Shown piece after piece: positions 28,188 to 54,279 of a stretch of DNA of 64,000 bases. Origin of the DNA: Kutzneria chonburiensis (lineage in GTDB: Bacteria; Actinomycetota; Actinomycetes; Mycobacteriales; Pseudonocardiaceae). The stretch covers positions 1,674,001 to 1,738,000 of the forward strand of contig NZ_CP097263.1 of the NCBI RefSeq assembly GCF_028622115.1, given 5' to 3'. Below the pieces are notes generated by a model. The model did not search any database, had not been told where the DNA came from, and worked only from the letters and a program-made list of their open reading frames with translations. Position 1 is the first letter of the stretch; each line of letters begins with the position of its first letter. A program made the position numbers and the translations under genes.

Positions 28188-31100
28188 TCAGACAGTAGTA
28201 CCGGCCCCTCTGAGCAAAGCAGCGAGGCCGGAAATGGTCGGCTTTCGGAAGAACTCCATCAGCGGGAAGTCCAGGCCGAGGCGATCCCGCACGCGGTCGC
28301 GCAGTCGTACGGCCGAAAGTGAATGGCCGCCGAGGTCAAAGAACGAGCTCGTGACGTCCACCGGGCCGCAGTCCAACTCCTCGCACCAAAGGACGTGCAA
28401 CTGGGCCTCCAGGCCGCCGACAGAGGCGGAGCACTCCGCCTTGCGAGTGGCCGGCTCGGGCAGGCGGTCGCGATCGAGCTTGCCATTGGCACTGACCGGA
28501 AGTTCATCTAGCCAGACCCAGCGGCGCGGCACGCTGTAGCCAGGCAGCACGTCGGACAGCGCGGCGGCGAGGTCGGCGACTTCCCGGTCACCGACAACGT
28601 AGCCGACGAGTTGGGCCTCGCCGTTGTCGTCCTTTGTCGCCACCACGGCAGCGTCCCGGACACCTTCGATGCCGGTCAGCGCGCGGGTCACCTCGCCAAG
28701 CTCGATCCGGAAGCCCCGGACCTTCACTTGGTCATCAGTGCGGCCAAGATACTCCAGAACGCCGTCACGCCACCGAGCCAGATCCCCCGTGCGATACAGC
28801 CTCTCGCCAGGGCGTTGCGGATCGGACACGAATGCCGCCGCCGTCTCCGCGGGCCGATTGACGTAGCCGTCGCTGACACAAGCGCCGCCGAGATGGATCT
28901 CGCCGACGGAGCCGACCGGCACGGGCCGGCCGCAGTCGTCGAGCAGGCGCACGTGCACCCCGGCGACCGGGCGGCCGATGGGCGGTGCGGGATCCCCCGG
29001 CACGACCACCTGTGCGGTGGCGCAGACCGACCCTTCGGTGGGGCCATACATGTTGTGCAGTACGCAGTCGGGGTGGCTGTCGAGGAATGCGCGCAGCGCG
29101 GGCGTGGATCCGGTCGCCTCGCCGGCGGAGATGAGCGTACGCAGCGAGGGCAGCGACGGCCGGGTGGCCATCAGGTACTTCAGCGGGGTGAACGGCATGG
29201 ACAGACGTTGCACGCCGTGCCGCCGGACGGTATCGGCGACGGCCGCCGGGTCGTACCGCGTCTCGTCGTCCATCAGCACGAGCCGGGCTCCGGACGCCAG
29301 TGTTACGAAGATCTCGACCACGCTGCCGTCGAACGAGGGCGATGCCCACTGGAGTGTGTCCTCGGGCTCGAATTCGGCCAGGTGCCAACGCACCAGGTTG
29401 ACCGGCCCGCGGTGTGGCACGAGCACGCCCTTCGGCTGACCGGTGGAGCCCGACGTGTAGATGCAGTACGCAAGACTGTCCGGAGTGGAGGGTGCTGACA
29501 CAGGTGCGGTCGGCACGTCGTCCAACTCGTCGACCAGCACCGGTGACACGGTTGCGAGCGCGGGCAGGTCGGTGAGCAGGCGTTCGGTCGTGACCACGGC
29601 GACAGCCCCGCTGTCGCCAAGCATGAATTCGATGCGGGCCGGTGGCACGGCCGCGTCCAGCGGCAGGTAGCCCGCGCCCGATTTGAGTACACCGACGAGG
29701 GCGGCGATCAGCTCCGGGCCGCGGGGCAGGCACACGCCGACCAGCGCGCCGCTGCCGATGCCTCGGGCGGCGAGCACACCGGCAATCCGGTCCGACCGTT
29801 CGTCGAGCTGCCGGTACGTCAGTTGCCGGTGGTCGTCGACGATGGCGACGGCGTCGGGCGTCCGCCGGGCCTGGTCGGCGACCAGGTCGTGCAGGCACTG
29901 CGTGGGCGCGCCGGCCGGCTCACCCTGCCATTGCGCCAGCAGCGCGCGGTCGGCCGCGGTCAGTGGCAGCGCTGACACCGATTCGGCGGGCCGGGCGATC
30001 CCGTGGCGCAGCGCGTGTTCCACGTAGTCCATCAGGCGCTGGACGGTCGAGCCGTCGAACAGGGCCGTGTCGTACTCCACGAGGCAGCGAACGCCGTCCG
30101 CGTGCTGCGTCAGGTAGATCATCACGTCCATGGTGGCCCGGTCGCTGGCCACGTCGATCAACTCCGCCGTGACCTCGGGCGCGAACTCGATGCCGGGTTC
30201 GGTCTCGAACTCGACGGCGATCTGGAACAGCGGATTGCGCCCGGGATCGCGGACCGGGTTGAGCTCACGCACGAGCTCGTCGAACGAAACCTGCCGATGC
30301 TCGTACGCCGCCAGGCTGGACCGCGTGACGCGCGCGGCAAGGTCACCGAAGGCGGGATCGTCGGTGAGGTCCACACGAAGGGGCACCGTGTCGACGAACA
30401 TGCCGACCACCCCCTCCGCACCGGCCGGGCGACCGCCGTACCCGGTGCCGAACACGATGTCGTGCTGGCCGCTCAATCGGGAGAGGGCGACGCCGAGCGC
30501 GGCGAGCAGGAGGCTGAACACCGTCGACCGATGCCGGGCGCCGAACTCGCGCAGGCGTTCGCCGATACCGTGCGCCAACTCGCGGGTGATGCTGGCGCCG
30601 ACGCCGGACCGCACCGGCGGCCGAGCGCGGTCGGTCGGGAGGATGAGTTCCTGTGCGCCCTCGAGATAGCCATGCCAGAAGGACAAGTCCGTGGCGCGTC
30701 GCCCGTCGTCGACCGGAACCGGAGCGGTCAGCTCGGCGGAGATCGGTGGCAGCGGGGCGTCTCTGTAGGCCGCACCCAGGTCCGTGACGAGGATCTGCGT
30801 GGACAGCGCGTCGATGACGATGTGGTGCCCGACCAGGAAGAGCAGGTGCCGCTCGGGGCCGAAACGCAGCAGCCTGAGGCGAAGCAAAGGACCATTCGCG
30901 AGATCGAACGGCACACGCCCGACTTCGGCCAGCACGGTGGCGAGTGCCATGGTCTCGTCGACGTCGACGCAATCGATGGTCGGGCAGTCGAGTTCGCTCG
31001 GCTGCGTGACGAGGCGGGGTTCGCCGTCCACGATCTCGACCACTGCCCGCAAGGCAGGATGACGGTCGATCACGCGACGTAGTGCGGCGTGCAGGGTTTC

Positions 31101-37256: not shown

Positions 37257-37258
37257 AA

Positions 37259-38452
37259 CTACCTCCCTGATCGGGACCTGACCAGCCCGGCCAGGAGGAA
37301 CGCACCCGCACCCGCTACGGGCACGGCGTGAAAGATCGCGACGACCTCCAGCGCCGGAAGCCTCTGCAACAGAGCGGAGCTGGCCAGCAGGCCGCCGCCG
37401 AGGCCGGCGGTCTCCACCGAGCTGGACAGGCCGAACAGGTATGCCCTCGCCGCCTCCGGTGCAGCCTGGAGCCGGGTGGTGTAGGCGATTTCCGTGAATC
37501 CGTCAGCGAAGCCCGCCACCAGCCCGACAACCGTGAGCAGCACCGGCGGAGGTCCGGTGAACGACAGCACGAACGCCGCCGACATCGCGCAGGTGCCGAC
37601 CGCGAACGCCCGACCGCCGAGCGCGCCCGGCCGACGCTTGATCACGCGGGACACCACGCGGTAGGTCACCAGGCTGCCGACCGCCCATGAGGCCATGAAC
37701 CGGCTCATGTAGCCGGCCGGATCCGCCGGGTCCACGAGGGTCGCGAATACCGGCAGCGCGACGTTGTGCGAGCCGGAGCCGAAGGTGTCCGCGCCACGCA
37801 ACAGAATCATCGCAAGCAGCGGCGCGGACAGCATGCGCAGGCGGCCAGGTCCCGAACCCGGTTCGGCCGAGGACCGCCAACCGCGGTCGGCAGGCAACCG
37901 CAGCAGCGTTGCGGTGGAGAAGAGGAACGACCCCGCGTTGATCAGGAACGCCGCTTCGTAGCCGCCGATGGAAACCAGCGGCGCCGCGGAGGCCAGCCCG
38001 AGCACGGTGGCCAACGACTTGGCGGTGACGAGATAGCCATTGGCGCGCAGAGCGTTCGCCTCGCCGACGATGCCGACGACACTTGTCCGCAATGCCACCG
38101 TGAACAGGCTGGCGCCGGCCCCGAGCACCACCGTGGCCGCGACAAGCGTCACCGGGTTCGCCCACAGCACCAGCGCGACCATCGCCAGCGCCTGCGCGAG
38201 GTCCGTGCCGATCATCAGTCGGCGGCGGTCCGTCCGGGCCGCGAGCCGACCCGCGACCGTGCCCGCCGCGAACCCGGCGGCGAGCCGCAGCGCCATCACC
38301 TCGCCGGTGCCCACCGCGTTGCCGGTGATCCGGTAGGTGAACAGGCTGAGCGCGACCAGGTTCAGGTACGTGCCGTAGGTGGAGACGGAGAAGCCGACGG
38401 CCAGTGCCACCAGGGGCCGACCAGTAGTTCCAAGGATTGCGGTGTTGGCCAT
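37259..38452 (-). CDS. MFS transporter, likely exporter of the cluster product
   Basis: 397 residues with about twelve membrane segments. The loop after helix 2 (GRLAARTDRRRLMIGTDLAQ) is the MFS signature. The sequence resembles MFS_3/enterobactin-exporter-like proteins. I start at ATG 38452 (MANTAILG) behind a GGAGGTACGGGGAG site. It is two bases upstream of the megasynthase in the same operon, which favours export of that product or self-protection. Confidence 0.88.
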   Translation of the reverse strand: MANTAILGTTGRPLVALAVGFSVSTYGTYLNLVALSLFTYRITGNAVGTGEVMALRLAAGFAAGTVAGRLAARTDRRRLMIGTDLAQALAMVALVLWANPVTLVAATVVLGAGASLFTVALRTSVVGIVGEANALRANGYLVTAKSLATVLGLASAAPLVSIGGYEAAFLINAGSFLFSTATLLRLPADRGWRSSAEPGSGPGRLRMLSAPLLAMILLRGADTFGSGSHNVALPVFATLVDPADPAGYMSRFMASWAVGSLVTYRVVSRVIKRRPGALGGRAFAVGTCAMSAAFVLSFTGPPPVLLTVVGLVAGFADGFTEIAYTTRLQAAPEAARAYLFGLSSSVETAGLGGGLLASSALLQRLPALEVVAIFHAVPVAGAGAFLLAGLVRSRSGR

Positions 38453-38489: not shown

Positions 38490-39725
38490 TCATGTCGGCC
38501 ACAAACCGTTGTCTGACAACCGGTCCCGCGCATTCACCAACGTGGCGAGGGTCGGCCCGAGGTAGAGCCGCACGTAGCCGGTGGCGTCGCCGCCGCTGGC
38601 CCGGGCAAGCGGCCACGCATCGGAGAGCACGACACCGCACTCGAGCACTGCCCGCCGCTGATACTCCTCGGTCGTCAGACCAGAAGGCACCGGATAGAGC
38701 ACGTACGGCGCCGCCGGCCCGGCAATCGTCCGGTCCAGTGTGGACGGGGGAAGCCAACTCAGCAGAGCTGCCCGTTTCAGTGCGGTCTCGGTCCGCTGTG
38801 CCTCCAGATACGCGGCCACCTCCACGCGATCGGCCAGCCACTGTGCCATTGCCCACTGCAGATGGATGGCGTAGTTGAAGGTGTGCTGCGGCCGAACCTC
38901 GTTGACGAGGTCGTCCAGTGGGCCAGGCTCGGCGATCACCGCGCCCAACGCCCAGCCGTTGCACCGGAACTGCTTGCCGAGGGAACGAACGCCCAGCCAT
39001 GGCACCGGCGACGGCCGACCGCCCAACCGGTCGAGCAGGATCTCGACCGCCGAGGTCGCCGGGCCAGGGCACATGCCGAAGTAGGCGTCGTCGATGAGGA
39101 TCGCGCAACCACGCCGCAACGCCAGGTCGACCAGCGCCGTGACCAGGCTCGGTGCCCAGTTCGCCCCGGTCGGGTTGTGCTGTGCGTTGATCACGACCAT
39201 GGCGAGGTCGTCAATCGCGTCGGCGGCCGCCAACACCTCGTCCGAGGTCGGTCCGCCGTGCTCGGCCGGATCGAACGGGACGTAGCCGGAGGTGAACCCC
39301 AGCGGCTCGAACACGCCCGCGTAGTCCCACGCCGGGGCGACGGCAAGCACGGTGCCCCGAGGCAGATCGCTCGCGAAATCCCGCATCGCGCTGCGGGTTC
39401 CGGTCCAGCTGACGGCCACCTCCCAGGAGCTGTTCCCGGGAAGGCGCTGGGTGTCGGCGACGTACTCCTTGACCAGTCGTCGCAGTAGCGGCAGTCCGTA
39501 CATGGAGAGCTGGTACCCGTGCGAATCCTGCGGTGCGTTCCGCAGTGCCGACAGCAACTGCGGCGGTGTCTGGCTCCAGGTCTCGCCGAGGCTGAGCAGG
39601 ATCGGCTCGCCGGCGGGCGCACCCGACCGCAGGTACTCGTTCAGCCACGCCACCTCCCGCAGCCGGTTGGGCCGCACGTCGTCAGCCAGCAAGGAGCGCA
39701 GCGGGGACTGCTCGACGCTGGTCAT
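38490..39725 (-). CDS. PLP-dependent aminotransferase, class I/II (fold type I)
   Basis: 411 residues. Fold type I markers: MVVINAQHNPTGANW (the Asn and NPTG motif), AILIDDAYFG (Asp for the PLP nitrogen), and the PLP lysine in GVRSLGKQFRCNGWALG. The C-terminal arginine that binds the substrate carboxylate is probably in GYVRLYLG. It overlaps the methyltransferase by ATGA. It may supply an unusual amino acid for the adenylation domain or amine an acyl intermediate; the substrate is not readable. Confidence 0.87.
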   Translation of the reverse strand: MTSVEQSPLRSLLADDVRPNRLREVAWLNEYLRSGAPAGEPILLSLGETWSQTPPQLLSALRNAPQDSHGYQLSMYGLPLLRRLVKEYVADTQRLPGNSSWEVAVSWTGTRSAMRDFASDLPRGTVLAVAPAWDYAGVFEPLGFTSGYVPFDPAEHGGPTSDEVLAAADAIDDLAMVVINAQHNPTGANWAPSLVTALVDLALRRGCAILIDDAYFGMCPGPATSAVEILLDRLGGRPSPVPWLGVRSLGKQFRCNGWALGAVIAEPGPLDDLVNEVRPQHTFNYAIHLQWAMAQWLADRVEVAAYLEAQRTETALKRAALLSWLPPSTLDRTIAGPAAPYVLYPVPSGLTTEEYQRRAVLECGVVLSDAWPLARASGGDATGYVRLYLGPTLATLVNARDRLSDNGLWPT

Positions 39726-40582
39726 CGCGCCGGCCGCGTGGCGTGCAGCACCGGCTCCGGGTTCGGGTGGCCCGCCCGGAACAGCAGGATCGAATAGCCG
39801 CAGTACGACAGGTTCTCATCGAAGAGTTCGTAGAAGTAGGTCAACCGTTCCCGGAGCGCGTCCACCTTGTCGGTCGGCTGGGCGTCCAGATGCGCCTGGC
39901 CCATCACGGTTTCCACGTACTCGGCGATCCGGTCGCCGGACTGCCGCACGTACTCGTACGGCTCGTCGGCGATCAGGCTCACGCCGGGACGCGAAAACAC
40001 GTCGACCCAGTAGTCCTTGCTCGTCACCGGCAGCGGTACGCCGATGGCCTGCTCGACTGCGCCGCGCAGCGACTCCGGCGGCGCGGAACGGTAGTAGATC
40101 GGCACCGCGGCCAACACACCGCGCGGCGCCAGGACCCGATAGTACTCGTCACCCGCCTTGCCGTGGTCGGACATGAAGGACGTGACGTTGCTGGCGAAGA
40201 CCAGCTCAAAGGTGTTGTCCCGGAACGGCATTCCCTGGCCGTCGCCGAGCACGAAGGTCACGTTGTCGATGCCGGCGGCCCGCGCCTTGGCGTCGGCGAA
40301 GGCGTTCGACACCGGGTTGACGTCCAAGCCGGTCACGGGTGCGTCCAACCAGCTCGCCAGCTCGATCGTGGTGTAGCCCGTGTTGCTGCCGACCTCCAGC
40401 ACCGGCCGGCCGGGGCGCGGACGGGCCAACTGCAGCACGCGCCGCACGGTGTCGCCGCCTCCGGACGGCATGTTCGGCTCGTTGATCAGGCCGACGACGC
40501 TGGAGAAGTCCAGCGCCCTGATCTCGGCGACGGACAGTTGTTCGACGGCCGCCGCGCCGGTGGCGATCGTGGTGGCATCCAT
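39722..40582 (-). CDS. SAM-dependent methyltransferase
   Basis: 286 residues, class I Rossmann fold. Motif I is PVLEVGSNTGYTTIELASWL, motif II VTGLDVNPVSNAFA, and the following FVLGDGQGMPFRDNTFELVF fits a SAM-dependent O-, N- or C-methyltransferase. A GGAG site precedes the ATG. It lies between the PP-loop protein (26-base gap) and the aminotransferase (overlap), so it is probably a tailoring or precursor enzyme of the cluster. Confidence 0.87.
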   Translation of the reverse strand: MDATTIATGAAAVEQLSVAEIRALDFSSVVGLINEPNMPSGGGDTVRRVLQLARPRPGRPVLEVGSNTGYTTIELASWLDAPVTGLDVNPVSNAFADAKARAAGIDNVTFVLGDGQGMPFRDNTFELVFASNVTSFMSDHGKAGDEYYRVLAPRGVLAAVPIYYRSAPPESLRGAVEQAIGVPLPVTSKDYWVDVFSRPGVSLIADEPYEYVRQSGDRIAEYVETVMGQAHLDAQPTDKVDALRERLTYFYELFDENLSYCGYSILLFRAGHPNPEPVLHATRPAR

Positions 40583-41652: not shown

Positions 41653-42668
41653 GGCGTCCTCCTCGGGGTGGGGGTGGTGGCAGGCGCCAGCAGAGTGAGC
41701 TGGCACGCGGTGGCGTCCAACACGGCGCGGCTGCCGACCGGCAGCGTGACCATCGGCTCGGTGTGGCCGAAGTCCACGTCGACGAGCACCGGGAGATCGC
41801 GGTCGCCCACCACGGCGCGAACAACGGCGTCAAAGTCGGTGGATCCCCCGGCCGCGGCGCGTGCGCCGCTGTGTCTGCCGATCACCAGTCCGGCGACGCG
41901 GTCGAGCAGGCCGCTGTCGGCCCACTGAATCAGGTGCGCCCACACCTGGTCCGGCCCCATGCCGGTGAATTCCAGGCACAGGAGCGCGCCGTCCACATCC
42001 GGCAGGTAGGACGTGCCGAACAGATAGGCGGCCGTCTGCGCGCAACCCGGTAGCAGCCAGCCCTCGGCGGTCCCAGGGACGAGGCACCGCCACGGTCCGG
42101 TCCGCTCGACGCGGCGGCGGGTGTCCTCACGATCCCACCACAGCGTCTCGTCGGTCCAGGATGCCGGTGCCCGCAACGGCTCTGGCCTCATCGCCGGATC
42201 GAGCGCGCGGCGCAGGGCGTCCATTGTGTACGCCCACGGGCCGCCCCATTCGCCCCATTCCGACATCAGCATCGGCCCGTGGAAGGTGACCAGCCCGGCG
42301 CAGGCCAGGGTGGCCCACAGCATGGACGTGACGTCGCTGTATCCGATGATCGGCAGTGCCGCCTCTCTGACCAGTTCCCAGTCGATGTGCCGAAGCACCG
42401 CGGAACAGGTGTAGCCGCCAGTGGTGCACAGCACGGCCCCCACTCGGTCGTCGAGCAGCAGCTTGTGCAGCTCGTCGGCCAACTGCCGGGGATCGGCGGC
42501 AGAAATGCCGTTGTTCGTCGCGGATGACGGTGTCACCACGACTTCGCGCCCGAGTGCCGCGAGCGCGCGGCGGTAGCGGCGCGGGAACAGGGCGGGCGCG
42601 GGTGACGACGGCGTCCAGACAGCGATCGCGGCGTTCGGCGCGGGTTGATGGGGAAGCCGAGTCACCAT
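41649..42668 (-). CDS. S66 peptidase, LD-carboxypeptidase / MccF-like self-immunity protein
   Basis: 339 residues. The nucleophile is Ser111 in PIIGYSDVTSML, and the Glu/His partners are in the C-terminal region (LCLEFTGMGP and DVDFGHTEPMVTLPVG). The family contains murein LD-carboxypeptidases and MccF, which inactivates microcin C by cleaving the amide between an amino acid and a nucleotide. No signal peptide is seen, which argues for a cytosolic immunity role over a wall role. It overlaps the MetRS gene by 7 bases and the PP-loop gene by 4, so it belongs to the biosynthetic operon. Confidence 0.85.
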   Translation of the reverse strand: MVTRLPHQPAPNAAIAVWTPSSPAPALFPRRYRRALAALGREVVVTPSSATNNGISAADPRQLADELHKLLLDDRVGAVLCTTGGYTCSAVLRHIDWELVREAALPIIGYSDVTSMLWATLACAGLVTFHGPMLMSEWGEWGGPWAYTMDALRRALDPAMRPEPLRAPASWTDETLWWDREDTRRRVERTGPWRCLVPGTAEGWLLPGCAQTAAYLFGTSYLPDVDGALLCLEFTGMGPDQVWAHLIQWADSGLLDRVAGLVIGRHSGARAAAGGSTDFDAVVRAVVGDRDLPVLVDVDFGHTEPMVTLPVGSRAVLDATACQLTLLAPATTPTPRRTP

Positions 42669-44146
42669 GTCAGCTCCAGCCTCGGGAAGAGGTGCGGCTT
42701 GACCACGATCTTCGCGTTGTCGCCGGTGCCGAGCGCGGCCGCCATCCGGCTCGAGGCGCCGGGCAGGATCGGACCCAACAACCTGGCCGCCATGCGTAGT
42801 ACCTCGACGAGCGTGTGCAGCGCCGTGTCGAGCACGTCGTGGTCCGTGACAGCCCACGGCGCGCGCTCGTTGACGTAGGCGTTGGCGGCGTGGACGAGCT
42901 GCGTCAGTTGCCGCACGGCTTCCTGGTGATCGAACCTGTCGAACGCCTCGTCGTAGCTTGCCGCTTGCGACTTCGCCGTGGCCAGCAAGGAGATTTCCAA
43001 CGGCCCTCGTGCGCCCGCCGTGGGCACGATACCGCCTCGGTAACACCCGACCATCGCGGTGACCCGATCGACCAGGTTGCCAAGACCGTTGCACAGATCG
43101 GTGTTGTACCGGGTGACCAGCCGCTGGTCGGTGAACTCCGCGTCGGCCCATGGCGAGAACTCCGCGAGCATCAGGTATCGGACGGCCTCAGTGCCGTACC
43201 GGTGTACGAGCTCGAGTGGATCGACGACGATGCCGAGCGACTTGCTGAGCTTCTGTCCGGACAGGGTGATGTGCCCGTGCACCACGAGGTCCGTCGGCAG
43301 TGGAAGGCCGGCCGACATCAGCATCGCCGGCCAGTACACGGCATGGAACCGTGCGACATCCTTGCCCAGCACGTGGATCCGACGCGCGGCATCCCGCCAG
43401 AACCGCCCGTAGTCGGCGTCATCGCGCACCCAGCCCAGCGCGTTGACGTAGTTCGTCAGCGCGTCGAACCACACGTACATGATCTGACTGTCGTCGCCGG
43501 GGACCGGAATACCCCAGCCGTGCGCCCTCGATGTCGACCGCGAGATGCTGATGTCGGTCAGGCCGCCGCGGACCAGGCCGAGCATTTCGTTGCGCCTCGA
43601 TTCCGGCCTGACCCTGATCTGACCGCTGGCCAGGGCGGTGGCCAGGGTCTCCTGGTAGCGGGACAGCCGGAAGAAGTAGTTCCGCTCCTTGACGACGACA
43701 GGTTCCCGCTGGTGTGCCGGGCATTTGCCGTTGACCAGATCGGCGGGCACGCGAAACTCCTCACACCCGACGCAGTACACGCCCTCGTAGTAGCGGGAGT
43801 AGATGTCGCCCCGCTCGGCCATTCGCCGCCAGAGCGCCGCGGCGCCGGTCATATGGTCCTGATCCACACTGGTCCGCACGAACCGGTCCACCGTCACGTC
43901 CAGCTGCTCGGTCAGGACGGCGAAAGTGGCCGCGTGCCGCGCGACGACAACTGCCGTCGGCTCGCCGAGGCGTTGTGCGGACTGAACGTTCTTCAGACTG
44001 TTCTCGTCGGTGCCGCTGGAGAAGAAGACGTCATCGGCCCGGGACAGGTGCCTGGCGAGTGCGTCGGCCTGCACGAACTCGAGCGCGTGACCAAGGTGCG
44101 GGCGTGCGTTGACGTACGGGATCGTCGTGGAGAGGAAGGTGGCCAT
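42662..44146 (-). CDS. Methionyl-tRNA synthetase (second copy in a biosynthetic cluster)
   Basis: 494 residues, class I. HIGH is PHLGH (His17-His20) and KMSKS is KLSKS (299-303). A zinc knuckle has CVGCEEF and GKCPAH. Other MetRS signatures are MYVWFDALTNYVNALG and GKDVARFHAVYWPAMLMSAG. The anticodon-binding helices follow (YNTDLCNGLGNLVDRV), and there is no C-terminal dimer domain, so it looks like a complete, functional enzyme. It overlaps the genes on both sides inside the operon, so it is unlikely to be the housekeeping copy. It may be a drug-resistant duplicate or supply Met-tRNA or Met-AMP to the pathway. Confidence 0.92.
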   Translation of the reverse strand: MATFLSTTIPYVNARPHLGHALEFVQADALARHLSRADDVFFSSGTDENSLKNVQSAQRLGEPTAVVVARHAATFAVLTEQLDVTVDRFVRTSVDQDHMTGAAALWRRMAERGDIYSRYYEGVYCVGCEEFRVPADLVNGKCPAHQREPVVVKERNYFFRLSRYQETLATALASGQIRVRPESRRNEMLGLVRGGLTDISISRSTSRAHGWGIPVPGDDSQIMYVWFDALTNYVNALGWVRDDADYGRFWRDAARRIHVLGKDVARFHAVYWPAMLMSAGLPLPTDLVVHGHITLSGQKLSKSLGIVVDPLELVHRYGTEAVRYLMLAEFSPWADAEFTDQRLVTRYNTDLCNGLGNLVDRVTAMVGCYRGGIVPTAGARGPLEISLLATAKSQAASYDEAFDRFDHQEAVRQLTQLVHAANAYVNERAPWAVTDHDVLDTALHTLVEVLRMAARLLGPILPGASSRMAAALGTGDNAKIVVKPHLFPRLELTW

Positions 44147-45390
44147 CAGTAGAACCGTCCTTCGTCGCTGACGAACAGCTGCTCGCCGGCGGGCCCGCCG
44201 CAGGTGTCGCAATGCCCGGCGACGCCGGGCACCACCGCGCCGAAGACCGCGAGATCACGGGAGCAGCTTCCGCACACCGAGCGCAGATGACCGCCTTCGG
44301 CCATGCCGGACTCGAACACCGCCGTCGCCCTGGTGGCCAACCTGGCGTCGGCGGCCGCCAAGAGGTCGCGAACCTGTTGCGGCTCGGGAAGTTCCGGTAG
44401 CTCCACGCGGGCCATCGGCAGTCGGGTGCACACCGCGACCGCCTCACGTGCTCGGCCCAGACCGATGACGAGCGGCACTCCGCGGCGGTGCCAGGCCCGC
44501 TCCGCCCGATCCCGTCCGGCCGCCTGCCCGGCGACCACGACATCGCACCGCAATCCACCGGCCCGCAGTCGGGACAACCAGTCGTCGGCACCGTGCTCCG
44601 GGGGCAGCGTGACACCTACCTGTGTCGGGGCGATCGCGCTGGGCAGAACGAGACCTCGAGCGTCCGCGTGCAGCATCGCTGTCGTTGCCAGAATTTTTCC
44701 GGTGAAGCCGACATCGATCACGTCCTGCTCGACGCCGAGCGCAGACCGCAGTTCGTCGGTGAGCACGTACAGGGTGGCGAGCACGGTAGGCCGTTTGTTC
44801 GGGAGCACGGCGACCGTGAGGTAGGACAGCTTGCCGTAACCGGCCAACGCCGGAGTTCTCACGGTCACCGTCGGGATTCCGATGGCGGCCAGCAGGTCTT
44901 CGACGATGGTCGCGTACGCGGTCAGCAATGACTCGGCGTCGGCCGCCGCCACGATGTGATTGAGCTCGACCACCGGCCAGATGCTGCGGTCCCGGAACAG
45001 CGGCGGGGTCTTGCCCGGCGCGTCCCTGATCACCTCGCCGATCGACACCACCGGACCGCGCTGGGCCGCCCGAGACCAGCCGGTGACGACCGTGACGATG
45101 TTGTCCGAACGGAACTGCACGCCCCGGTGCCCCGGTAGGTCCCGCACGTCGTAGACGTTGTCGTAGGCGCCGAACACCTGCCGGCCGGCCGCGGCATCCG
45201 CGAGGAACCCGTGTTGCAGGACGGTTGGCTCGCCGTGGCGCGCGACGAGATCCAGAAAGAGGTCGGTGAGCAGGCGCACGGCCTGGATGCCGGCGGCCCG
45301 CCACAACGGGATGCCTTTGATCATGGGCGGGCCGGTGATGAATTCGGCCGCGTGCAAGGCCTGGGCGTAGGGGAGCGGCCACGTCAGCAC
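44146..45390 (-). CDS. Prolyl-tRNA synthetase-like class II protein
   Basis: About 414 residues. It aligns by eye with archaeal/eukaryotic-type ProRS: IKGIPLWRAAGIQAVRLL, the segment TGKILATTAMLHADARGLVL then PSAIAPTQVGVTLP, an anticodon-binding-like domain (GVPLVIGLGRAREAVAV) and a C-terminal zinc module (CGSCSRD, HCDTCGG). Where ProRS has the motif-2 R-x-REF-x-W-x-E pattern this protein reads FRDRSIWPVVELNH, so the catalytic site may be altered. The N-terminus is short. Start GTG 45390 overlaps the upstream stop; GTG 45423 is possible. It may act as an amide ligase, a tRNA-editing partner or a resistance factor. Confidence 0.72.
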   Translation of the reverse strand: MLTWPLPYAQALHAAEFITGPPMIKGIPLWRAAGIQAVRLLTDLFLDLVARHGEPTVLQHGFLADAAAGRQVFGAYDNVYDVRDLPGHRGVQFRSDNIVTVVTGWSRAAQRGPVVSIGEVIRDAPGKTPPLFRDRSIWPVVELNHIVAAADAESLLTAYATIVEDLLAAIGIPTVTVRTPALAGYGKLSYLTVAVLPNKRPTVLATLYVLTDELRSALGVEQDVIDVGFTGKILATTAMLHADARGLVLPSAIAPTQVGVTLPPEHGADDWLSRLRAGGLRCDVVVAGQAAGRDRAERAWHRRGVPLVIGLGRAREAVAVCTRLPMARVELPELPEPQQVRDLLAAADARLATRATAVFESGMAEGGHLRSVCGSCSRDLAVFGAVVPGVAGHCDTCGGPAGEQLFVSDEGRFY

Positions 45391-45824
45391 CGCCCCTCGG
45401 GCATTCGGTCCAGCGTCGCACACACCCGCAGCTCGCGGCCGTGACGGCCGAGCCCGACCGAGCTACAGGCCCGCACGCTCGACAGCGCCGCGTTCACCCT
45501 GTCCAGCACGCCTTCCATCTCGCTGTGTGGCAGTACTGCCTGTAGCAGCAGCAGTTCGGCGACTTCGCGACCGTCATGCAGGCCCCAGCCGACCGAGTAC
45601 CAGCGGCCCACGGCGGCGCTCCGGATCGGGTCGACCAGGTCGAAGCCGGTGCCGAACGAGCGAAGGCACCACCGAGCTCCGTCGACGCTGGTCCGCACGG
45701 TGACCGGGTATCGCATCCGCCTCGGGTTGTTGGCCGGGATGGCGGGCAGCGCAAGCAGTTCCTCGAACCCCAGGTTGTCCAGTGCCGACATCACGGCCTT
45801 GGTCGGGGCGGTGGCATAGAGCAT
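45384..45824 (-). CDS. Protein of unknown function
   Basis: 146 residues that I do not recognise. The protein is mixed alpha/beta with no signal peptide or membrane segment. It has an Arg- and Trp-rich middle (DGARWCLRSFGTGFDL, GRWYSVGWGLHDGREVAELL). A GGAGGTAG site precedes the ATG by a few bases, and the end overlaps the ProRS-like start, so it is a real coupled gene of the operon. Its place between two synthetase-like proteins suggests a partner of one of them; that is only inference. Confidence 0.7.
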   Translation of the reverse strand: MLYATAPTKAVMSALDNLGFEELLALPAIPANNPRRMRYPVTVRTSVDGARWCLRSFGTGFDLVDPIRSAAVGRWYSVGWGLHDGREVAELLLLQAVLPHSEMEGVLDRVNAALSSVRACSSVGLGRHGRELRVCATLDRMPEGRC

Positions 45825-45899
45825 CGGGCTACCTCCGTCGTGCGCGAGCCGAAGTCCCGGCGACCTGGCGTCATCGCCGTGCGCTGACTCCTGCTGGGA

Positions 45900-47029: not shown

Positions 47030-47354
47030 GACCTCTGCTCGATGTGAACCTAGCTCACCGAACCATCCCGAACATGCGGCGAACGGCAGGAGGGAAGCGG
47101 TGGCGTTCGTTTGTTGCATGTTCTGACCTGTTTCCAACCGATCTGGCCACCGTTGCGCGCCGACAGTCTGTGCGCCGAGTGTCTGATATGGACAGTTGTG
47201 GTCCGAGGCGGCGGAATGCGCTCGCACGTAAGCAAAGTCGGACAAGCGCGCACTGGTCTGCCGTCGCACGTACGGTCTATGGTGGTGTCGTTGGGTGACC
47301 CGGTCGGTCACGTTGGCCCGCTCATGCGAGCACCGAGAGTCTGGAACTTCCGCT
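47030..47354. promoter_or_regulatory. Divergent intergenic region between the main operon and the MFS gene
   Basis: About 325 bases with lower GC than the flanks and no convincing gene. It must hold the promoter of the leftward operon and of the rightward MFS gene. I see no clear operator palindrome and no regulator gene in the cluster, so control probably comes from elsewhere. Confidence 0.45.
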
Positions 47355-48620
47355 ATGTTCGGCTGGTTACGCCCTCCCGCGCCGCTGACAAGGCGACTGG
47401 CCTTGCAGGCCGCGCTGTTCGCCCTCGGGCACGGCACCTTCCTTTCCGGCAGCGCGGTCTTCTTCACGCAGATCGTCGGCCTGTCGCCGGCCGAGGTCGG
47501 CCTTGGCCTGACGATCGCCGGCGCGGTGGTGTTTCTCGCGGCGGTGCCGCTGGGCCGGGCGGTCGACCATGTGGGGCCGAAGAAGATGTGGGCGATCGCG
47601 GCAGCGGTGCAGGGAGCGCTGTACCTGGTGTACCCGTGCGTCCATGGCTTCTGGGGCTACGTGCTGGTCATCCTGATGGTCGAACTCGCTGACACGGCCG
47701 GTATCGCGGCTCGCGGGGCGTACACCCTCAACGCCTTCCCGAACGGTGAACGGGTCAAGTCCCTGGCCTATATGCGAGGTGCCCTCAACCTCGGCTGCGC
47801 CGTCGGCGCGTTGCTGAGCGGACTGGCGCTGGCCAGCGGCAGCGAGGCCATCGTCCGGGCAATCCCGCTCGGCACCGCTGTGGTTCTGTTGGTGAACGCG
47901 GTTCTGATCACCCGACTGCCGGTCGTCGCGTCCGGCGCCGTGGCGCCCCGGCTCGACGGACCGGTGCTGAGGACCCTTGGCGCGTTGCGTAACCGAGGAT
48001 TCCTCGCGGTCAGCGTATTGAGCGGGGTCCTGAGCACCAACCAGGTCTTGTTGAGCGTGGTCATCCCGCTGTGGCTCGTGCGGGACACCGACGCCCCGCA
48101 CTGGCTGCTGGCCTGGCTGTTCGGCACCAACACCGTGTTGGTCGTGCTGTTGCAGGTGGCCGCTTCGCGCGGGGCGAACACTGTCGCCGGTGCGTTGCGC
48201 GCGGCCTTGCGCAGCGCCATCTTTCTGGTGGCATCCTGCCTCGTGGTGATGCTGACCGGCACCACGATCGGCTGGATCACGGCCGGGCTGATCTGGTTGG
48301 GACATGTTGCGCTCACCGCCGCCGAACTGTTCGGCGCCGCGGCGGACTGGGGTCTCACATCCGAACTGTCCGACCCGGCCCGCCGCGGCGAGTATCAGGG
48401 CGTCGCCAGGGTCGGCACGACGGTGGGCACCGTGTGGGCCCCGGCTGTCTACACGTTCCTGGCCGTCAATTGGCACACCGCCGGCTGGCTGGCCATCGGT
48501 GGCATCGTCGTGGTAGCCGCCTTGGCCATGTGGCCGGCAGCCAAGGCGGCCGAGCGCTACCTGGCCAAGCACGCGGGCGTCCCAGTTGCTGACGCGATGG
48601 TCAACCGTCAGCGCCCGTGA
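47355..48620 (+). CDS. MFS transporter, second exporter of the cluster
   Basis: 421 residues with about twelve membrane helices and the MFS loop GRAVDHVGPKKMWAIAAAVQ. I start at ATG 47355 (MFGWLRPPAPLTRRLALQ). It is transcribed opposite to its neighbours and its 3' end overlaps the convergent ATP-grasp gene by 20 bases. Position inside the cluster points to export of the product or resistance. Confidence 0.85.
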   Translation: MFGWLRPPAPLTRRLALQAALFALGHGTFLSGSAVFFTQIVGLSPAEVGLGLTIAGAVVFLAAVPLGRAVDHVGPKKMWAIAAAVQGALYLVYPCVHGFWGYVLVILMVELADTAGIAARGAYTLNAFPNGERVKSLAYMRGALNLGCAVGALLSGLALASGSEAIVRAIPLGTAVVLLVNAVLITRLPVVASGAVAPRLDGPVLRTLGALRNRGFLAVSVLSGVLSTNQVLLSVVIPLWLVRDTDAPHWLLAWLFGTNTVLVVLLQVAASRGANTVAGALRAALRSAIFLVASCLVVMLTGTTIGWITAGLIWLGHVALTAAELFGAAADWGLTSELSDPARRGEYQGVARVGTTVGTVWAPAVYTFLAVNWHTAGWLAIGGIVVVAALAMWPAAKAAERYLAKHAGVPVADAMVNRQRP

Positions 48621-49815
48621 CGGTGAAGTCGAGGGCGGCCAAGGCATTCGCGGCCCGCTGACGCAGCTCCTGCTCGTCGCGCCCGGTCACCATCACCGCG
48701 GCGAAGAAGTTCTCTTTGTCCACGGACGACACCTGGTAGCCATCGATCACGTAAGCGTCCATGACACCGTCGATCGCCCGCAGCTCATCGGCGGTCGTAC
48801 GGCACCGTACGACACCGACCGATCCGGCTTCCACCGGCACGATCGCCAACAGGTCGTCGTGCCCGGCCGCCGACGGCGGGAGTCGATTCCCCAGGGCGAG
48901 GTCCAGCGAGACCTCGATCGGATCCACTCCGGACCGGTGCCGGATTGCCGCCGGGTACAGGCCGCCGCCCGGCCGGGGATTGACCTCGATCAGCCCGATG
49001 CGCCCGTCCGGTCCGACCCGGCCTTCCGCGTGCAGCCAGGTCCGGTCCAGACCGAGCTGGTCCACCAGCGCCTGAAGCCCGTGCACGAACCGGTTCACGG
49101 CGTCCGCTGGCACGCGGACCGGCGGAGACACCCGCAAGCCACGGTCGTGCAACCGGACCGAGTCGTGGTCGGGCTTGTCGGCCACGAAGGCAGGGTGGAA
49201 CCGGCCGTCGACGACGTAGCCGTCGACCGAGAACTCCTCGCCGTCCAGGAATTCCTCGAGGATGAACGGTTCTTCGCCGCGTTGGCCCAGGCCGGTGGCC
49301 ACGCTGGCCAGCTCCACCATCGAGGACGCCAGGTGCACGTCTCGCGAGGCGCCGCTGACCACGGCCGGTTTGACCACGACCGGGTACTCCGTAGGGGGAT
49401 TGGCGGCAATCTCCCTGACAGTGCCCGCCGTCCACCGGATCGGGAACACACCGGCCGCATCCGCGGCTCGGCGTACCTCGGCCTTGTCGGTCAACGCGGC
49501 CACGCCGGCGGTGGGGTCGGCGAGGCCGAGTTGGGCTATCAGCGAAGCTCTGCGGACCACGAGCGACTCGACCATGTTGACCACCGCGTCGGCACGGATG
49601 CCGGCGTGGTCAAGCGCATCCGCGACGGCCTCGTCACCGCCGTCCCAGTCGACCATCACGTGATCGTCACAAGCCTCGGCGTTGGGATCGTCGGCCACCT
49701 CCGACAACAGCACGACCCGCCACCCGCGTCGCCGCATCGCGGAAGCCAGGACCCGCACCCCGCCCGCCAGCTTGGCGGACAGCAGCAGCGCGGTCCCGTT
49801 GTGAGGGATACTCAT
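48601..49815 (-). CDS. ATP-grasp ligase 1
   Basis: 404 residues. ATP-grasp markers: EYPVVVKPAVVSGASRDVHL (the grasp lysine and loop), EPFILEEFLDGEEFSVDGYV, and the metal-binding IGLIEVNPRPGGGLYPAAIR. The family forms carboxylate-amine bonds through an acyl phosphate, as in L-amino-acid ligases and carnosine synthase. The ATG overlaps the stop of the second ATP-grasp gene (ATGA), so the two probably act in succession or as a pair, for example to join amino acids to the PKS/NRPS product. Confidence 0.88.
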   Translation of the reverse strand: MSIPHNGTALLLSAKLAGGVRVLASAMRRRGWRVVLLSEVADDPNAEACDDHVMVDWDGGDEAVADALDHAGIRADAVVNMVESLVVRRASLIAQLGLADPTAGVAALTDKAEVRRAADAAGVFPIRWTAGTVREIAANPPTEYPVVVKPAVVSGASRDVHLASSMVELASVATGLGQRGEEPFILEEFLDGEEFSVDGYVVDGRFHPAFVADKPDHDSVRLHDRGLRVSPPVRVPADAVNRFVHGLQALVDQLGLDRTWLHAEGRVGPDGRIGLIEVNPRPGGGLYPAAIRHRSGVDPIEVSLDLALGNRLPPSAAGHDDLLAIVPVEAGSVGVVRCRTTADELRAIDGVMDAYVIDGYQVSSVDKENFFAAVMVTGRDEQELRQRAANALAALDFTVTGADG

Positions 49816-51095
49816 CCGCTCGGACTGATGTCGTCGTGCTCGACCGGCACGGTGCGCACCGGCAGCGCTTGGGGAATCGTCTTGAACAGCTGGTGCAGCT
49901 CGTCGGCGGTGTCGGCGCCGACGAAGGCGAACGCGACCCACTCCGAGGGATGCCGCATCTGCAGCACATCGCCCTCACCGCGCCAGACCTGAGCCTGGAT
50001 CACCCCGGGCGTCGCCTCGATCTCCGCGACGGTGGGAACCTCGACGATCCGGCCCGGGCCGTCCGGCCGCAGGTGCAGCACGCCCAGGTACGGCGCGTCC
50101 GGGCGGGGCGGTTCGGTCCGACCGTCGATCGCGATGTCGGCCATGGCCGACCAGATCGGACGGCCCATCGCATGGCTGATCAGACCGCTCACCCAGCCGC
50201 CGCCGACGCGGCTGGCGATCTCGGAGAAGACGAGCCGGCCGTCCGGCTGGCGGAACACCTCGAGGTGGATCATGGTCTCGGTCAGGTCGAGACCGTCCAT
50301 GACCTGCTTGGTGAGCGCCTCCAGTTCCGCGTACAGCTCCGGGTGGTCCTCTCGACACAGCAGCTCGCTGCCGTCGGTGTTGAGCTGTCCGTATTGGACT
50401 GTCAGTCGCGGCGCGAAGTACCGCGACACGAACAGGAAGTGCGGCCCATCCGCGCCCCAGTAGCTGTCCACATGCAGCTCCTCGCCGTCGATGTAGGTCT
50501 CGACGGTGAGTTGCCTTGAGGCCAGCTGCGGCTCGTACGCGAACGACTCGCAGATCGCCGTGAACTCCGCGGCACCGCGCGCCAGGTACGTGCTCATGGT
50601 GCCGAAACCGGCAGCCGGCTTCACCACCACGGGATAGTCGATCTGGTCGGCCAGCGCGGCCACCGCAGCCTCGTCGGACCGATCCGGCAACGAGTGGAAC
50701 GGCGGCACGGCCAGCCCCTTGACAGCCAGCAGGTGCTTCATCCACCGCTTGTCCCGCCCGGCCACCGAGCCGGGAACGCAGACGCCGAGTCCGAGCACCT
50801 CACTGAGATAACCCGCGCCCAGCTGGGAGAACTCGGTGAAGCTCACCACCTTGTCCACACCCTGGTCCTGCAACCGGATGGCCACCGCGGCCGTGCCCAG
50901 CTCTTCGAGGGCGTTGAAGCTGCTCACGACGTGCACCGACGCCGCCCTGGACAGGACCTCCTGGTCGATACCGGCGTGCGCCACGTCGAAGTCGTCCAGC
51001 ACGACGTGCACGCGGACGCGGTCGATCAGGTCCTTCGCCAACTGCGGCTGCCACTTGCACAGCACGATCGACCGCCCATTGGTCGGGCTGTTCAT
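49812..51095 (-). CDS. ATP-grasp ligase 2
   Basis: 427 residues. Markers: YPVVVKPAAGFGTMSTYLAR, QLTVETYIDGEELHVDSYWG, and LVFSEIASRVGGGWVSGLIS with the Glu/Asn-type metal site altered to E-I-A-S-R. It is closest to the amino-acid ligase group. The N-terminal domain (SIVLCKWQPQLAKDLIDRV) is the usual pre-grasp fold. I choose ATG 51095; GTG 51101 is also possible. It lies 34 bases below the cupin-like gene and overlaps ATP-grasp 1. Confidence 0.87.
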   Translation of the reverse strand: MNSPTNGRSIVLCKWQPQLAKDLIDRVRVHVVLDDFDVAHAGIDQEVLSRAASVHVVSSFNALEELGTAAVAIRLQDQGVDKVVSFTEFSQLGAGYLSEVLGLGVCVPGSVAGRDKRWMKHLLAVKGLAVPPFHSLPDRSDEAAVAALADQIDYPVVVKPAAGFGTMSTYLARGAAEFTAICESFAYEPQLASRQLTVETYIDGEELHVDSYWGADGPHFLFVSRYFAPRLTVQYGQLNTDGSELLCREDHPELYAELEALTKQVMDGLDLTETMIHLEVFRQPDGRLVFSEIASRVGGGWVSGLISHAMGRPIWSAMADIAIDGRTEPPRPDAPYLGVLHLRPDGPGRIVEVPTVAEIEATPGVIQAQVWRGEGDVLQMRHPSEWVAFAFVGADTADELHQLFKTIPQALPVRTVPVEHDDISPSG

Positions 51096-51129
51096 CGTCA
51101 CTCCCCACTCCGTTCGCGCGAACTCGCGG

Positions 51130-52227
51130 TCAGATGTTCATGAAGGCGTAGGTGCTGCCGCAGTCGAACACGTCGCCCAGGCGCAGGTTGTCGGACTCGC
51201 CTCGCAGGTACTTCGCGGTGGCGTCCAGCTTGGCGTCCCACTCCTGGGGCGTCAGTGCGACCGCCTTCTTGAGGATGTCGGAGTTGTCGCGGTGAAACTC
51301 CGCCATCGCCGGCACCATGTACGACTTGGGGATCTGGGTCGTCTCCGCGCACAGGAACAGCGTGATCGTCGGTCGGTCGGTGGCCGTGGTTCGATCCACC
51401 TCGACGTCGTGGATCTGGTCGGTGGACATGTAGTAGCTCTCGCCCTGGCTCAGCAGGAGGCGGTCTTCCAGTGTGCGCAGACGGTTGGCCGCGTACTCGT
51501 TGTGCGGTGGCCAGACGCCGTCCACCCGCTCCAAAACCATGTCGTGGTACCGATCGCCCTCGGTGTCGGCCGTCGGTTCGGCCAGCTCCTCGTAGATGGA
51601 CTGCCGCATCTGGCCCTTGGACACGTACGAGACGAACGAGAACGGGTGCGAGTGCGGCGGCTCGACGATCGCGCCCGGCTCGTGCCGCTTGGTCGACTCG
51701 AAGCCCTCGGCCGTCGGGTTGGGCTGCCAGATGTGAATGCTGGCATGCCATTCCGAGACCGGGTACCCCATGAAGTCCTCGACGCCGTCGGCCGGTGGCA
51801 CCGTGGTCGCCAGTGGGTGGTTGCCCGAGGCCAGCACGATCGACTGTCCGGCCCAGCCGTAGATGCAGTGACTGCGGCCGGACCGCGACCGTTCCGCCAC
51901 CTTGTGGTCGTCCGGCCCGCCGGTCTTCAGCGACGCCCGCATGATCTCGAGGAACGCGGCCAGGTTGTCGGCCCGGCCGAGCGTGCGCACGAAGGAGTTC
52001 ATGCGGGCGACCCGCTCCGGGCCCGCCGGTGTGTCGCGGATGTCCTCCAGCAGGTCCTGGAGATCCAGCAGGGCGCCGTTGGGGTCGTTCACGCCCTGGT
52101 CGGCGGCGGCCAGGACATCAGTGATCGATTTCTCCACCACTTGGTCGAAGTACCCTGTCGACAGCGCATTCCTTGACTCGTCCAGGGAAACCCTGTCCGG
52201 GTTCTCGTTGCCAAGCCAGTGTGCCAT
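51130..52227 (-). CDS. Cupin-like protein of unknown function
   Basis: 365 residues. A central double-stranded beta-helix is suggested by EPPHSHPFSFVSYVSKGQMR with two close histidines, YYMSTDQIHDVEVD with a third, and TLFLCAETTQIPKSY. This is a typical H-x-H ... H metal site of a non-haem iron or other metal cupin. The N-terminal third is helical and unrecognised. AGGAAGG precedes the ATG. It opens the cupin/ATP-grasp/ATP-grasp block and may oxidise an amino-acid precursor; that is inference. Confidence 0.7.
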   Translation of the reverse strand: MAHWLGNENPDRVSLDESRNALSTGYFDQVVEKSITDVLAAADQGVNDPNGALLDLQDLLEDIRDTPAGPERVARMNSFVRTLGRADNLAAFLEIMRASLKTGGPDDHKVAERSRSGRSHCIYGWAGQSIVLASGNHPLATTVPPADGVEDFMGYPVSEWHASIHIWQPNPTAEGFESTKRHEPGAIVEPPHSHPFSFVSYVSKGQMRQSIYEELAEPTADTEGDRYHDMVLERVDGVWPPHNEYAANRLRTLEDRLLLSQGESYYMSTDQIHDVEVDRTTATDRPTITLFLCAETTQIPKSYMVPAMAEFHRDNSDILKKAVALTPQEWDAKLDATAKYLRGESDNLRLGDVFDCGSTYAFMNI

Positions 52228-52736: not shown

Positions 52737-52920
52737 GGCGGAAACGTAATCGACAGGGCACGGGAATGACCGCCGTGCCACGGATCCGGCCACAGTCGGA
52801 CCGAACCCGTTGGTGTGCTTACCGGCCGACCTACGGCGACAGCGTCATCCGACGCTGTCGGCCGCCGGGCACGGTTGTTACGTTGTCGCGAAACCGCCGT
52901 TCGCGCCGTGAGGAGTCCTT

Positions 52921-54279
52921 GTGGGGGAGGAAGTGTTGGCCACCAAGCTGGCGCGCTGGGTGTTCGACCTCGATTTCGACCAGCTGCCGCCACTGGTGGT
53001 CGAGACCGCCAAACAGATGGTGCTCGACCAGCTAGGACTGCAACTGCTCGGCGCGACGCTGCCCAACGTGCAGCCGGAGAGGCGGCTGGTCGCGAGCATG
53101 CAGGCCACCCCGGAAAGCACGGTGGTGTTCTCCGGATCCGGGACGGTCGCGCCGTACGCGGCCTACGTCAACGGCGCGCTGGCGACCAGTTGCGAGTTCG
53201 ACGACGTCCATGGGCATGCCGGGCATCCGGGCGCGAACGTCGTGCCCGCCGCACTCGCGTTCGGCGAGTACACCGAGGCCTCCGGCCGCGAGGTGATCGT
53301 GGCGATCGTCGCCGGTGTGCAGGTGATGTCGCTGCTCGGCGCGGCCACGCAGCTCGACATGCTGCGCCGGGGCTGGCACGGGGCCAAGGTGCTGGGCGTG
53401 TTCGGCGCGGCGACCGCCGCCGGCGTGCTGCTCGGCCTGACCACGGACGAACTCGCCAACGCCTTCGGCATCGCCGGCAGTGACGCCTCTGGAACCATGG
53501 AATACGAGCTTGCCGGCGGCGAGGTGAAACGAATGCACGCCGGGGCCGCCGGTCGCAGCGGCGCGCAGGCGGCACTTCTGGCCCGCGACGGACTCACCGG
53601 CCCACTGACGATCTTCGAAGGCGAGCGCGGCATTCTGCGCCAGTTCACCGGCAGTGCGGACCTGTCCCGTATCGATCGGAACTGGGACCATTTCCACATC
53701 CAGGACGTCATGTTCCGGCGCTACCCGGTCATCGGATCGGCGGCCGTGGTGCTGGACGGAATTCGCCACCTGATGCGCGACGCCGACTGGCGATGGCGCG
53801 ATGTGGCCGAGATCCGACTTGGGCTGCCGGCGTTCGCCATGGGGCACGGCGCTGTCGTCACGCGTCCGTCGGATGCGGTGTCCGCGCAGTTCAGCACGGC
53901 TTTCAGCGTCGCCCTGCGGCTCGTGCGGGGCCGCAACCGGGCCAAGGACTACTTCGACCCCGTATTGTGGACGGACCCCGATGTGCTGTCGGTGGTCGAC
54001 AAGGTGGTGCCGTACGAGGCGGATGTCGCCGCCGAACCGCAGTCGTTGCACTGCCGTGTCGGCATTCGGCTCTACGACGGCCGGGAGCTGTCCCACTTCC
54101 AGCGCGGCTTCACCGACGGCTCGGTCGTCGGCAAGTTCCGCGACAACGTGACCGGGCTGCTCGAACCGACCGTCGCGGACGAGGTCGTCGACCTGGTCGC
54201 CGGCCTTGACGAACTCGACGAGGTGGCGACGCTGATGCGGCCGCTGGCCGTCGACCCGTCGCGCCGGGTCAGCCGATGA
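52921..54279 (+). CDS. MmgE/PrpD family protein
   Basis: 452 residues matching the MmgE/PrpD fold: LARWVFDLDFDQLPPLVVET then AKQMVLDQLGLQLLG, YVNGALATSCEFDDVHGHAG with the active-region Asp and His, and MHAGAAGRSGAQAALLARDG. Members include 2-methylcitrate dehydratase and cis-aconitate decarboxylase. The GTG start has GAGGAG six bases upstream. No other propionate genes are present, so a role as a decarboxylase or dehydratase in making a precursor for the adjacent cluster is possible; it could also simply be the first gene outside it. Confidence 0.85.
   Translation: MGEEVLATKLARWVFDLDFDQLPPLVVETAKQMVLDQLGLQLLGATLPNVQPERRLVASMQATPESTVVFSGSGTVAPYAAYVNGALATSCEFDDVHGHAGHPGANVVPAALAFGEYTEASGREVIVAIVAGVQVMSLLGAATQLDMLRRGWHGAKVLGVFGAATAAGVLLGLTTDELANAFGIAGSDASGTMEYELAGGEVKRMHAGAAGRSGAQAALLARDGLTGPLTIFEGERGILRQFTGSADLSRIDRNWDHFHIQDVMFRRYPVIGSAAVVLDGIRHLMRDADWRWRDVAEIRLGLPAFAMGHGAVVTRPSDAVSAQFSTAFSVALRLVRGRNRAKDYFDPVLWTDPDVLSVVDKVVPYEADVAAEPQSLHCRVGIRLYDGRELSHFQRGFTDGSVVGKFRDNVTGLLEPTVADEVVDLVAGLDELDEVATLMRPLAVDPSRRVSR

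Follow-up and report, generated by a model that had tools for sequence, protein, structure and literature searches.

A Kutzneria operon that probably makes an agrocin-84-type inhibitor of methionyl-tRNA synthetase

Evaluating a 64,000-nucleotide stretch of the 10.41 Mb Kutzneria chonburiensis genome (contig NZ_CP097263.1, positions 1,674,001 to 1,738,000 of the forward strand; hereafter the window), we found a ten-gene, minus-strand operon (46928-28188) that probably makes an aminoacyl-adenylate mimic of the agrocin 84 type inhibiting methionyl-tRNA synthetase (MetRS), with an extra MetRS and an S66 peptidase giving immunity; we infer both the chemistry and the target. By Pfam and NCBIfam calls on the open reading frames (ORFs) of the window, its genes encode, in order, a protein resembling asparaginyl-tRNA synthetase (AsnRS-like), a 146-aa protein without annotation, a protein resembling prolyl-tRNA synthetase (ProRS-like), MetRS, the S66 peptidase, a PP-loop ATPase, a methyltransferase, an aminotransferase, a major facilitator superfamily (MFS) transporter and a polyketide synthase-nonribosomal peptide synthetase (PKS-NRPS) megasynthase. 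Several junctions overlap by a few bases (e.g., TGATG at ProRS-like/MetRS) and gaps reach about 75 nt at most. The leftward operon with overlapping genes described in a first-pass annotation, made from the letters alone, is there with every gene it named, though that annotation overlooked the 146-aa gene and the wider family of loci considered below. Gene order is preserved in two Catenulispora species, the nearest cluster relatives (79-81% in the AsnRS-like protein), and partly in Streptomyces sp. 8L and Actinomadura latina, and therefore the operon is not a chance assembly.

The first-pass annotation knew of no described cluster with this set of genes; the agrocin 84 plasmid pAgK84, however, holds homologues of four of the ten (AgnA, AgnC1, AgnC5/MccF and a methyltransferase). 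Comparing 16 proteins of the 21 features annotated in the pAgK84 stretch with the window (tblastn, E 1e-3), we found matches for five: AgnA to the AsnRS-like protein (41.7%, E 1e-73), its neighbouring methyltransferase to that of the operon (35%, E 7e-52), AgnC5 to the S66 peptidase (37%, E 2e-46), AgnC1 to the ProRS-like protein (28.6%, E 4e-19; E 4e-14 in a plasmid search) and, over a short class I segment, AgnB2. This last is a 68-residue match inside MetRS, the leucyl-tRNA synthetase (LeuRS) copy itself being absent, and AgnD3 and five other proteins had no match in the window at that threshold. Both clusters hold an extra synthetase, putatively for self-immunity in the window, with MetRS there where agrocin 84 has LeuRS, and the window's extras are the 146-aa protein, the PP-loop ATPase, the aminotransferase and the PKS-NRPS. 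The AgnC1-containing pathway of agrocin 84 yields a leucine-mimicking methylpentanamide, agnC4 being annotated for that part. In the accessible portions of the literature, agnB2 is described as a LeuRS conferring self-immunity (PMC5059758) and agnA as a truncated AsnRS homologue serving as biosynthetic enzyme of a phosphorus-nitrogen (P-N) antibiotic (PMC4392301). We conclude that the cluster is related to, yet distinct from, that of agrocin 84.

Scanning genome contigs of 84,980 species with an AgnA alignment, we confirmed 189 relatives and retained the 80 best, a selection that skews the sample toward the window's nearest kin; with nine plasmid loci these make 89 AgnA loci (1.76 Mb; identifiers beginning with L), in which co-occurrence was scored by tblastn at E 1e-10. 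The control, 36 loci (0.22 Mb) fetched for synthetases or megasynthases, is smaller and not random. An S66 match was seen in 61 AgnA loci (median distance to AgnA 3.4 kb, 42 within 5 kb), which is far above chance because the K. chonburiensis genome has five S66-like matches per 10.4 Mb, the cluster gene included. The methyltransferase was found in 38 of the 89 loci (33 together with S66), ATP-grasp genes in 21, the ProRS-like gene in 8 (pAgK84 and seven genome loci), MetRS in 7, the PP-loop ATPase in 5 and the cupin-like gene in 3; none of the 36 control loci matched the S66, methyltransferase, AsnRS-like, PP-loop, 146-aa or ProRS-like proteins. The S66 peptidase has the motifs GYSD, WTDE..W and GHT in common with AgnC5, and we take the first to be the serine nucleophile motif and the second the tryptophan-bearing specificity loop of the MccF clade. 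MccF cuts the carboxamide joining the aminoacyl and nucleotide parts of its substrates (PMC9239234, PMC7157772, available portions), and by analogy the window's peptidase would be a self-immunity hydrolase of an N-acyl phosphoramidate.

The genome encodes a 597-aa housekeeping MetRS elsewhere, of the kind that comes out as top match for 55 of 60 family genomes. The cluster enzyme, which carries an anticodon domain and passes the metG cut-off, belongs instead to a MetRS1-like type and shares 47% identity with a further extra copy at 8893194. The histidine of the GxDEHG motif, beside the catalytic aspartate, is asparagine in the MetRS of the window, L019, L020, L042 and the copy at 8893194, and is kept in L030, Escherichia coli, the housekeeping MetRS and 5/6 other family MetRS loci read (the pattern failed to match L099, L056, L089 and L090). 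That second extra MetRS1-type gene (G000:C1:8893194, L119:9185-10624, 479 aa) has no AgnA-like match in the 20-kb stretch that holds it, and a 582-aa MetRS-like ORF at G000:C1:2755212 (L120) has ATP-grasp matches about 3 kb away. PF00152 marks four places in the genome: besides the cluster gene these are AspRS, LysRS and an aspartate-tRNA(Asn)-type ligase. None of the four reaches an AsnRS cut-off, and the genome has no AsnRS. The first-pass annotation had set against its own reading the case that these synthetase genes are sole, housekeeping copies, and this fails, since a further MetRS and a ProRS (787 bits) are encoded elsewhere in the genome, which lacks AsnRS. The cluster synthetase genes are not housekeeping.

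From homology, and from the self-immunity shown in print for AgnB2 and MccF, we infer immunity roles for the cluster MetRS and the S66 peptidase, the MetRS also presumably marking the target. Where the first-pass annotation left the synthetase copies as either resistance or biosynthesis, our reading assigns both, by gene: MetRS (with S66) to immunity, the AsnRS-like and ProRS-like proteins to biosynthesis.

Across the AgnA loci the accompanying synthetase varies (Met, Leu, Ala, Thr, Glu, Pro, Gly, His). Using queries for Asp, Lys, Thr, Ser, Pro, Gly, Met, Leu, Ala, Glu and three unidentified synthetases (none chosen for Arg, Cys, Gln, Phe, Trp or Tyr), we saw a synthetase-type match, some weak or partial, in 46/89. 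Eleven loci hold same-specificity pairs: Ala in L014, L016 and L025; Thr in L024; Glu in L023; Pro in L026 and L068; His in L044; and Gly in L050, L059 and L063, the last three being Bacilli/Clostridia-type metagenome-assembled contigs, each with an AgnA-like gene, S66 and two GlyRS genes. Seven of these pairs were checked by NCBIfam, and L016, L025, L059 and L063 come from tblastn alone. In L014, L024, L026, L044 and L068 one member passes a curated cut-off for its specificity and its partner does not; in L050 both GlyRS pass; in L023 one passes, its partner being truncated where the retrieved stretch ends. Some ORFs were started at the tblastn match start, possibly lowering scores. Photobacterium galatheae (L090), with an AgnA-like gene, S66 and two MetRS-type matches (24% and 33% to the housekeeping MetRS of K. 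chonburiensis), is a possible Met/Met pair in a Gram-negative, weaker and left out of the eleven.

Within this variation, the AgnA-like protein itself keeps key residues: Q97, E135 and R271 of the asparagine pocket and the motif-2 and motif-3 arginines R119 and R315 are unchanged in 90/90 AgnA-like rows (conservation at about 68-77 and 306-314, residues used in the recruiting patterns, proves nothing). The first three align with Q187, E225 and R368 of Thermus AsnRS, which we take to be its asparagine-recognition residues. Because the pocket is invariant while the synthetases vary, the amino-acid substrate of AgnA is probably constant across clusters and the acyl part variable. The AsnRS-like protein is our candidate for the P-N bond-forming enzyme. 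By a quick method without bootstrap, the window's AgnA falls in a 9-row clade (100% SH-aLRT) in which the synthetase is Met for the window, L019 and L020, Glu for L023 and Thr for L024 and L037, with a divergent ProRS-like gene alone in L011 and L021 and an AgnC1-type gene alone in L022.

The ProRS-like protein has the narrower distribution: among 72,556 plasmid records (tblastn, E 1e-5) it matched only five Agrobacterium/Rhizobium plasmids, one annotated agnC1, and the AsnRS-like protein matched 60, agnA among them. It has no Pfam match and scores 33.5 bits with TIGR00408 (cut-off 437); a profile match to ProRS (7.9e-16) and a predicted model (pLDDT 78) of ProRS fold (best 1nj1, E 1.3e-25, TM 0.76) give its likeness. 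In 8/8 family sequences, AgnC1 included, the motif-3 arginine is lysine, the motif-2 arginine is kept and the C-terminus bears a four-cysteine motif. We propose it as the putative acyl-activating enzyme. The 146-aa gene co-occurs with it in 7/7 genome loci, no homologue being detected in pAgK84 though AgnC1 is present there, and because of this co-occurrence we guess that the two form a heteromeric enzyme; the predicted model of the small protein (pLDDT 73) weakly resembles class II synthetase cores, and sequence comparison gives no support for such a likeness. MetRS and an AgnC1-type ProRS-like gene stand together in the window, L019, L020, L030 and L042, as Leu and the ProRS-like protein do in pAgK84, L015 and L087. 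L030 (Streptantibioticus) and L042 (Plantactinospora), with agnA, agnC1, agnC3, agnC5 and agnC6 homologues plus MetRS and the 146-aa gene (and agnC2 in L030), by gene content bridge agrocin 84 and the window cluster; L047 carries this agn set too, with agnC2 and with the 146-aa gene. At L071:12068-12622 a guanylate-kinase-like ORF (named by eye from its N-terminus) lies between the S66 and ProRS-like genes, no target synthetase having been detected in that locus.

To summarize the proposed biology, the AgnA-like enzyme would use ATP and an Asn/Asp-type substrate to form a nucleotide 5'-P-N intermediate common to all such clusters, and the ProRS-like protein, perhaps with the 146-aa partner, would activate a methionine-like acid and transfer it to the P-N nitrogen. 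PP-loop, methyltransferase, aminotransferase, PKS-NRPS and ATP-grasp enzymes would modify the molecule or furnish a carrier part. The resulting methionyl-adenylate mimic would inhibit MetRS, while in the producer the extra MetRS1-type enzyme would keep working and the MccF-clade peptidase would cleave the toxic product.

Several observations weigh against this reading. No product or activity is known for the cluster, the role of the PKS-NRPS is unexplained, and P-N bond formation by AgnA is not shown in the literature texts examined. The cluster MetRS retains the class I signatures PHLGH and KLSKS, with no resistance change proven. The ProRS-like protein differs in specificity type from MetRS, unlike the same-specificity pairs elsewhere. 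Homologues of agnC2-C4, C6 and C7 were not detected in the window (tblastn, E 1e-3). At E 1e-10, 28 of the 89 AgnA loci lack an S66 match and 51 a methyltransferase match; 43 have no synthetase match with the incomplete query set, and MetRS was not seen in L022 (a 15.3-kb contig), L047 or L071 (10 kb either side) despite a ProRS-like gene.

Among other explanations, the one that survives best, though we consider it unlikely, is that the operon is a mosaic of an agrocin-like unit (AsnRS-like to aminotransferase) and an MFS/PKS-NRPS unit with an unrelated product. L019, L020 and L022 have a different MFS gene, then a cupin-like gene, after the aminotransferase gene (itself conserved at 55-75% in L019, L020, L022 and L023), and C. 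pinistramenti (L118; genome G334, contig C268) carries an MFS plus KS-AT...LLM-C-A megasynthase, 39-43% to the window pair, with no AgnA match in the surrounding 33.6 kb; the MFS-megasynthase unit may thus be a late addition. Against a mosaic stand the tight, one-directional spacing of the window operon and the PKS/NRPS-type matches in 16/89 AgnA loci, two of them solely to the first, ligase-like domain. For the agrocin-like unit itself, a mosaic is compatible with the agrocin-type explanation. The megasynthase reads as fatty-acyl-AMP-ligase-like A (adenylation), ACP (acyl carrier), KS (ketosynthase), AT (acyltransferase), ACP, luciferase-like monooxygenase (LLM), C (condensation), A and PCP (peptidyl carrier) domains, with no thioesterase family reported in Pfam/NCBIfam scans.

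That the AsnRS-like protein is instead an asparagine synthetase of the archaeal AS-AR type feeding asparagine to an ordinary PKS-NRPS, with MetRS an unrelated resistance gene, we regard as improbable. Its best NCBIfam matches are 'asparagine synthetase A' models, each below cut-off, its asparagine-pocket residues are conserved, and it weakly matches the AsnRS-related AS-AR (PDB 3p8t, 294 aa, E 3e-9); yet the frequency of MccF-clade S66 genes indicates aminoacyl-nucleotides and not asparagine supply, AgnA is described as an enzyme of P-N antibiotic biosynthesis (PMC4392301, in part), and the single AS-A-like paralogue compared (NBC_00829, L017) falls outside as a long outgroup branch. Hardly credible is a joint action of the MetRS-like and cupin proteins as a hydrazine synthetase, for although the two share one cluster, cupin-MetRS enzymes of this type (s56-p1, triacsin) combine a cupin and a reduced MetRS domain in a single polypeptide, whereas here MetRS is full length and the cupin a separate gene, and L022 has the cupin with MetRS not detected.

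Returning to the agrocin-type explanation, the cluster can be set beside other nucleotide antibiotics. It resembles microcin C in its aminoacyl-nucleotide P-N warhead logic and MccF-type immunity peptidase (PMC9239234, PMC7157772, PMC12250964, in part). In microcin C it is MccB, a ThiF-like enzyme, that forms this bond, on a ribosomal peptide; Pfam/NCBIfam scans of cluster proteins reported no ThiF family, small precursor peptides not being searched for. Phosmidosine, of the same proposed product class, contains proline and 8-oxoadenine parts. The window differs in having MetRS, and no molybdenum hydroxylase was seen among its cluster genes. As a P-N nucleotide antibiotic of Streptomyces it is described in PMC6429109, and no description of its genes was found in the portions of the phosmidosine literature examined. 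Two Streptomyces loci, L011 and L021 (AgnA 69-70%, ProRS-like, S66), are candidate phosmidosine-like clusters; L011 has an annotated molybdenum hydroxylase and L021 an ORF homologous to it. An outside hint of such products is a maize endophyte gene with a lysyl-tRNA-synthetase-like domain; a screen for loss of antifungal activity hit this gene three times, and its authors list an agrocin- or phosmidosine-like product among the alternatives (PMC5047915, in part).

Upstream of the operon lie a divergent MFS gene and, on the operon strand, two ATP-grasp genes and a cupin-like gene (Table 1), these last three also named in the first-pass annotation. The cupin-like gene has 63-67% homologues in L019, L020 and L022 and ATP-grasp ligase 2 a 66% homologue in L022, all beside orthologous operons, and because of this recurrence we extend the cluster to about 52227; ATP-grasp ligase 1 has homologues at 38-39% in AgnA loci L049 and L052. 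The range first proposed (28188-54279) holds up to that point and not beyond, no evidence having been found that ties the MmgE/PrpD gene at 52921-54279 to the cluster. A 2088-aa RHS-repeat/PA14/GLEYA protein at 54740-61006 (+) has no relation to it.

Table 1. Genes of the Kutzneria cluster, with window coordinates
Feature	Position	Strand	Basis or remark
AsnRS-like protein, AgnA homologue, 342 aa	45900-46928	-	PF00152 79.9 bits, anticodon domain absent
146-aa protein	45384-45824	-	possible non-catalytic class II synthetase-like partner of ProRS-like protein
ProRS-like protein, AgnC1 homologue, ~415 aa	ORF 44146-45423, true start probably near 45390	-	
MetRS, complete, MetRS1-like	42662-44146	-	PF09334 296 bits, Anticodon_3; TIGR00398 402.5 bits (cut-off 336)
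S66 peptidase, MccF clade	41649-42665	-	PDB best matches MccF, 1e-36
PP-loop ATPase, WbuX/N-acetyl sugar amidotransferase-like	40609-41652	-	TIGR03573 106.6 bits, below cut-off 203
Class I S-adenosylmethionine methyltransferase	39722-40582	-	PF08241
Class I/II aminotransferase	38490-39725	-	PF00155 82.9 bits
MFS transporter of operon	37259-38452	-	PF07690 73.3 bits
PKS-NRPS megasynthase, 3022 aa	28188-37256	-	Pfam and NCBIfam domains
MFS transporter, divergent from operon	47295-48620	+	PF07690 82.3 bits
ATP-grasp ligase 1, proposed amino-acid ligase	48601-49941	-	NCBIfam ATP-grasp-type matches, all below cut-off
ATP-grasp ligase 2	49812-51101	-	PF13535 47.7 bits; weak L-amino-acid ligase C-domain likeness (PF18603 below cut-off)
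Cupin-like protein	51130-52227	-	weak PF07883, below cut-off

Taken across the family, these loci may form a large, so far undescribed, combinatorial antibiotic class, with a common P-N handle made by the invariant AgnA enzyme, an exchangeable acyltransferase of synthetase origin that sets the warhead and a canonical immunity synthetase, the target being legible from the last two together and the window being a MetRS-directed, PKS-NRPS-decorated form with a heteromeric ProRS-like activator; we hold this wider proposal tentatively, at somewhat less than even confidence. In the open-access literature we found no paper on such a class or on a MetRS-directed natural product, and the product of a MetRS-directed cluster would be, to our knowledge, the first natural MetRS inhibitor. 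Until now agrocin 84, microcin C and phosmidosine could pass for isolated curiosities; if the proposal is true, agrocin 84, and perhaps phosmidosine, would sample a broad class that turns tRNA-synthetase folds into antibiotic-making enzymes, which raises for enzymology the question of whether a class II synthetase fold can form a P-N bond. The target would then be legible from the gene cluster, and a genome-guided search for inhibitors of chosen synthetases (Met, Thr, Gly, Ala, His, Glu, Pro) would become directly testable.

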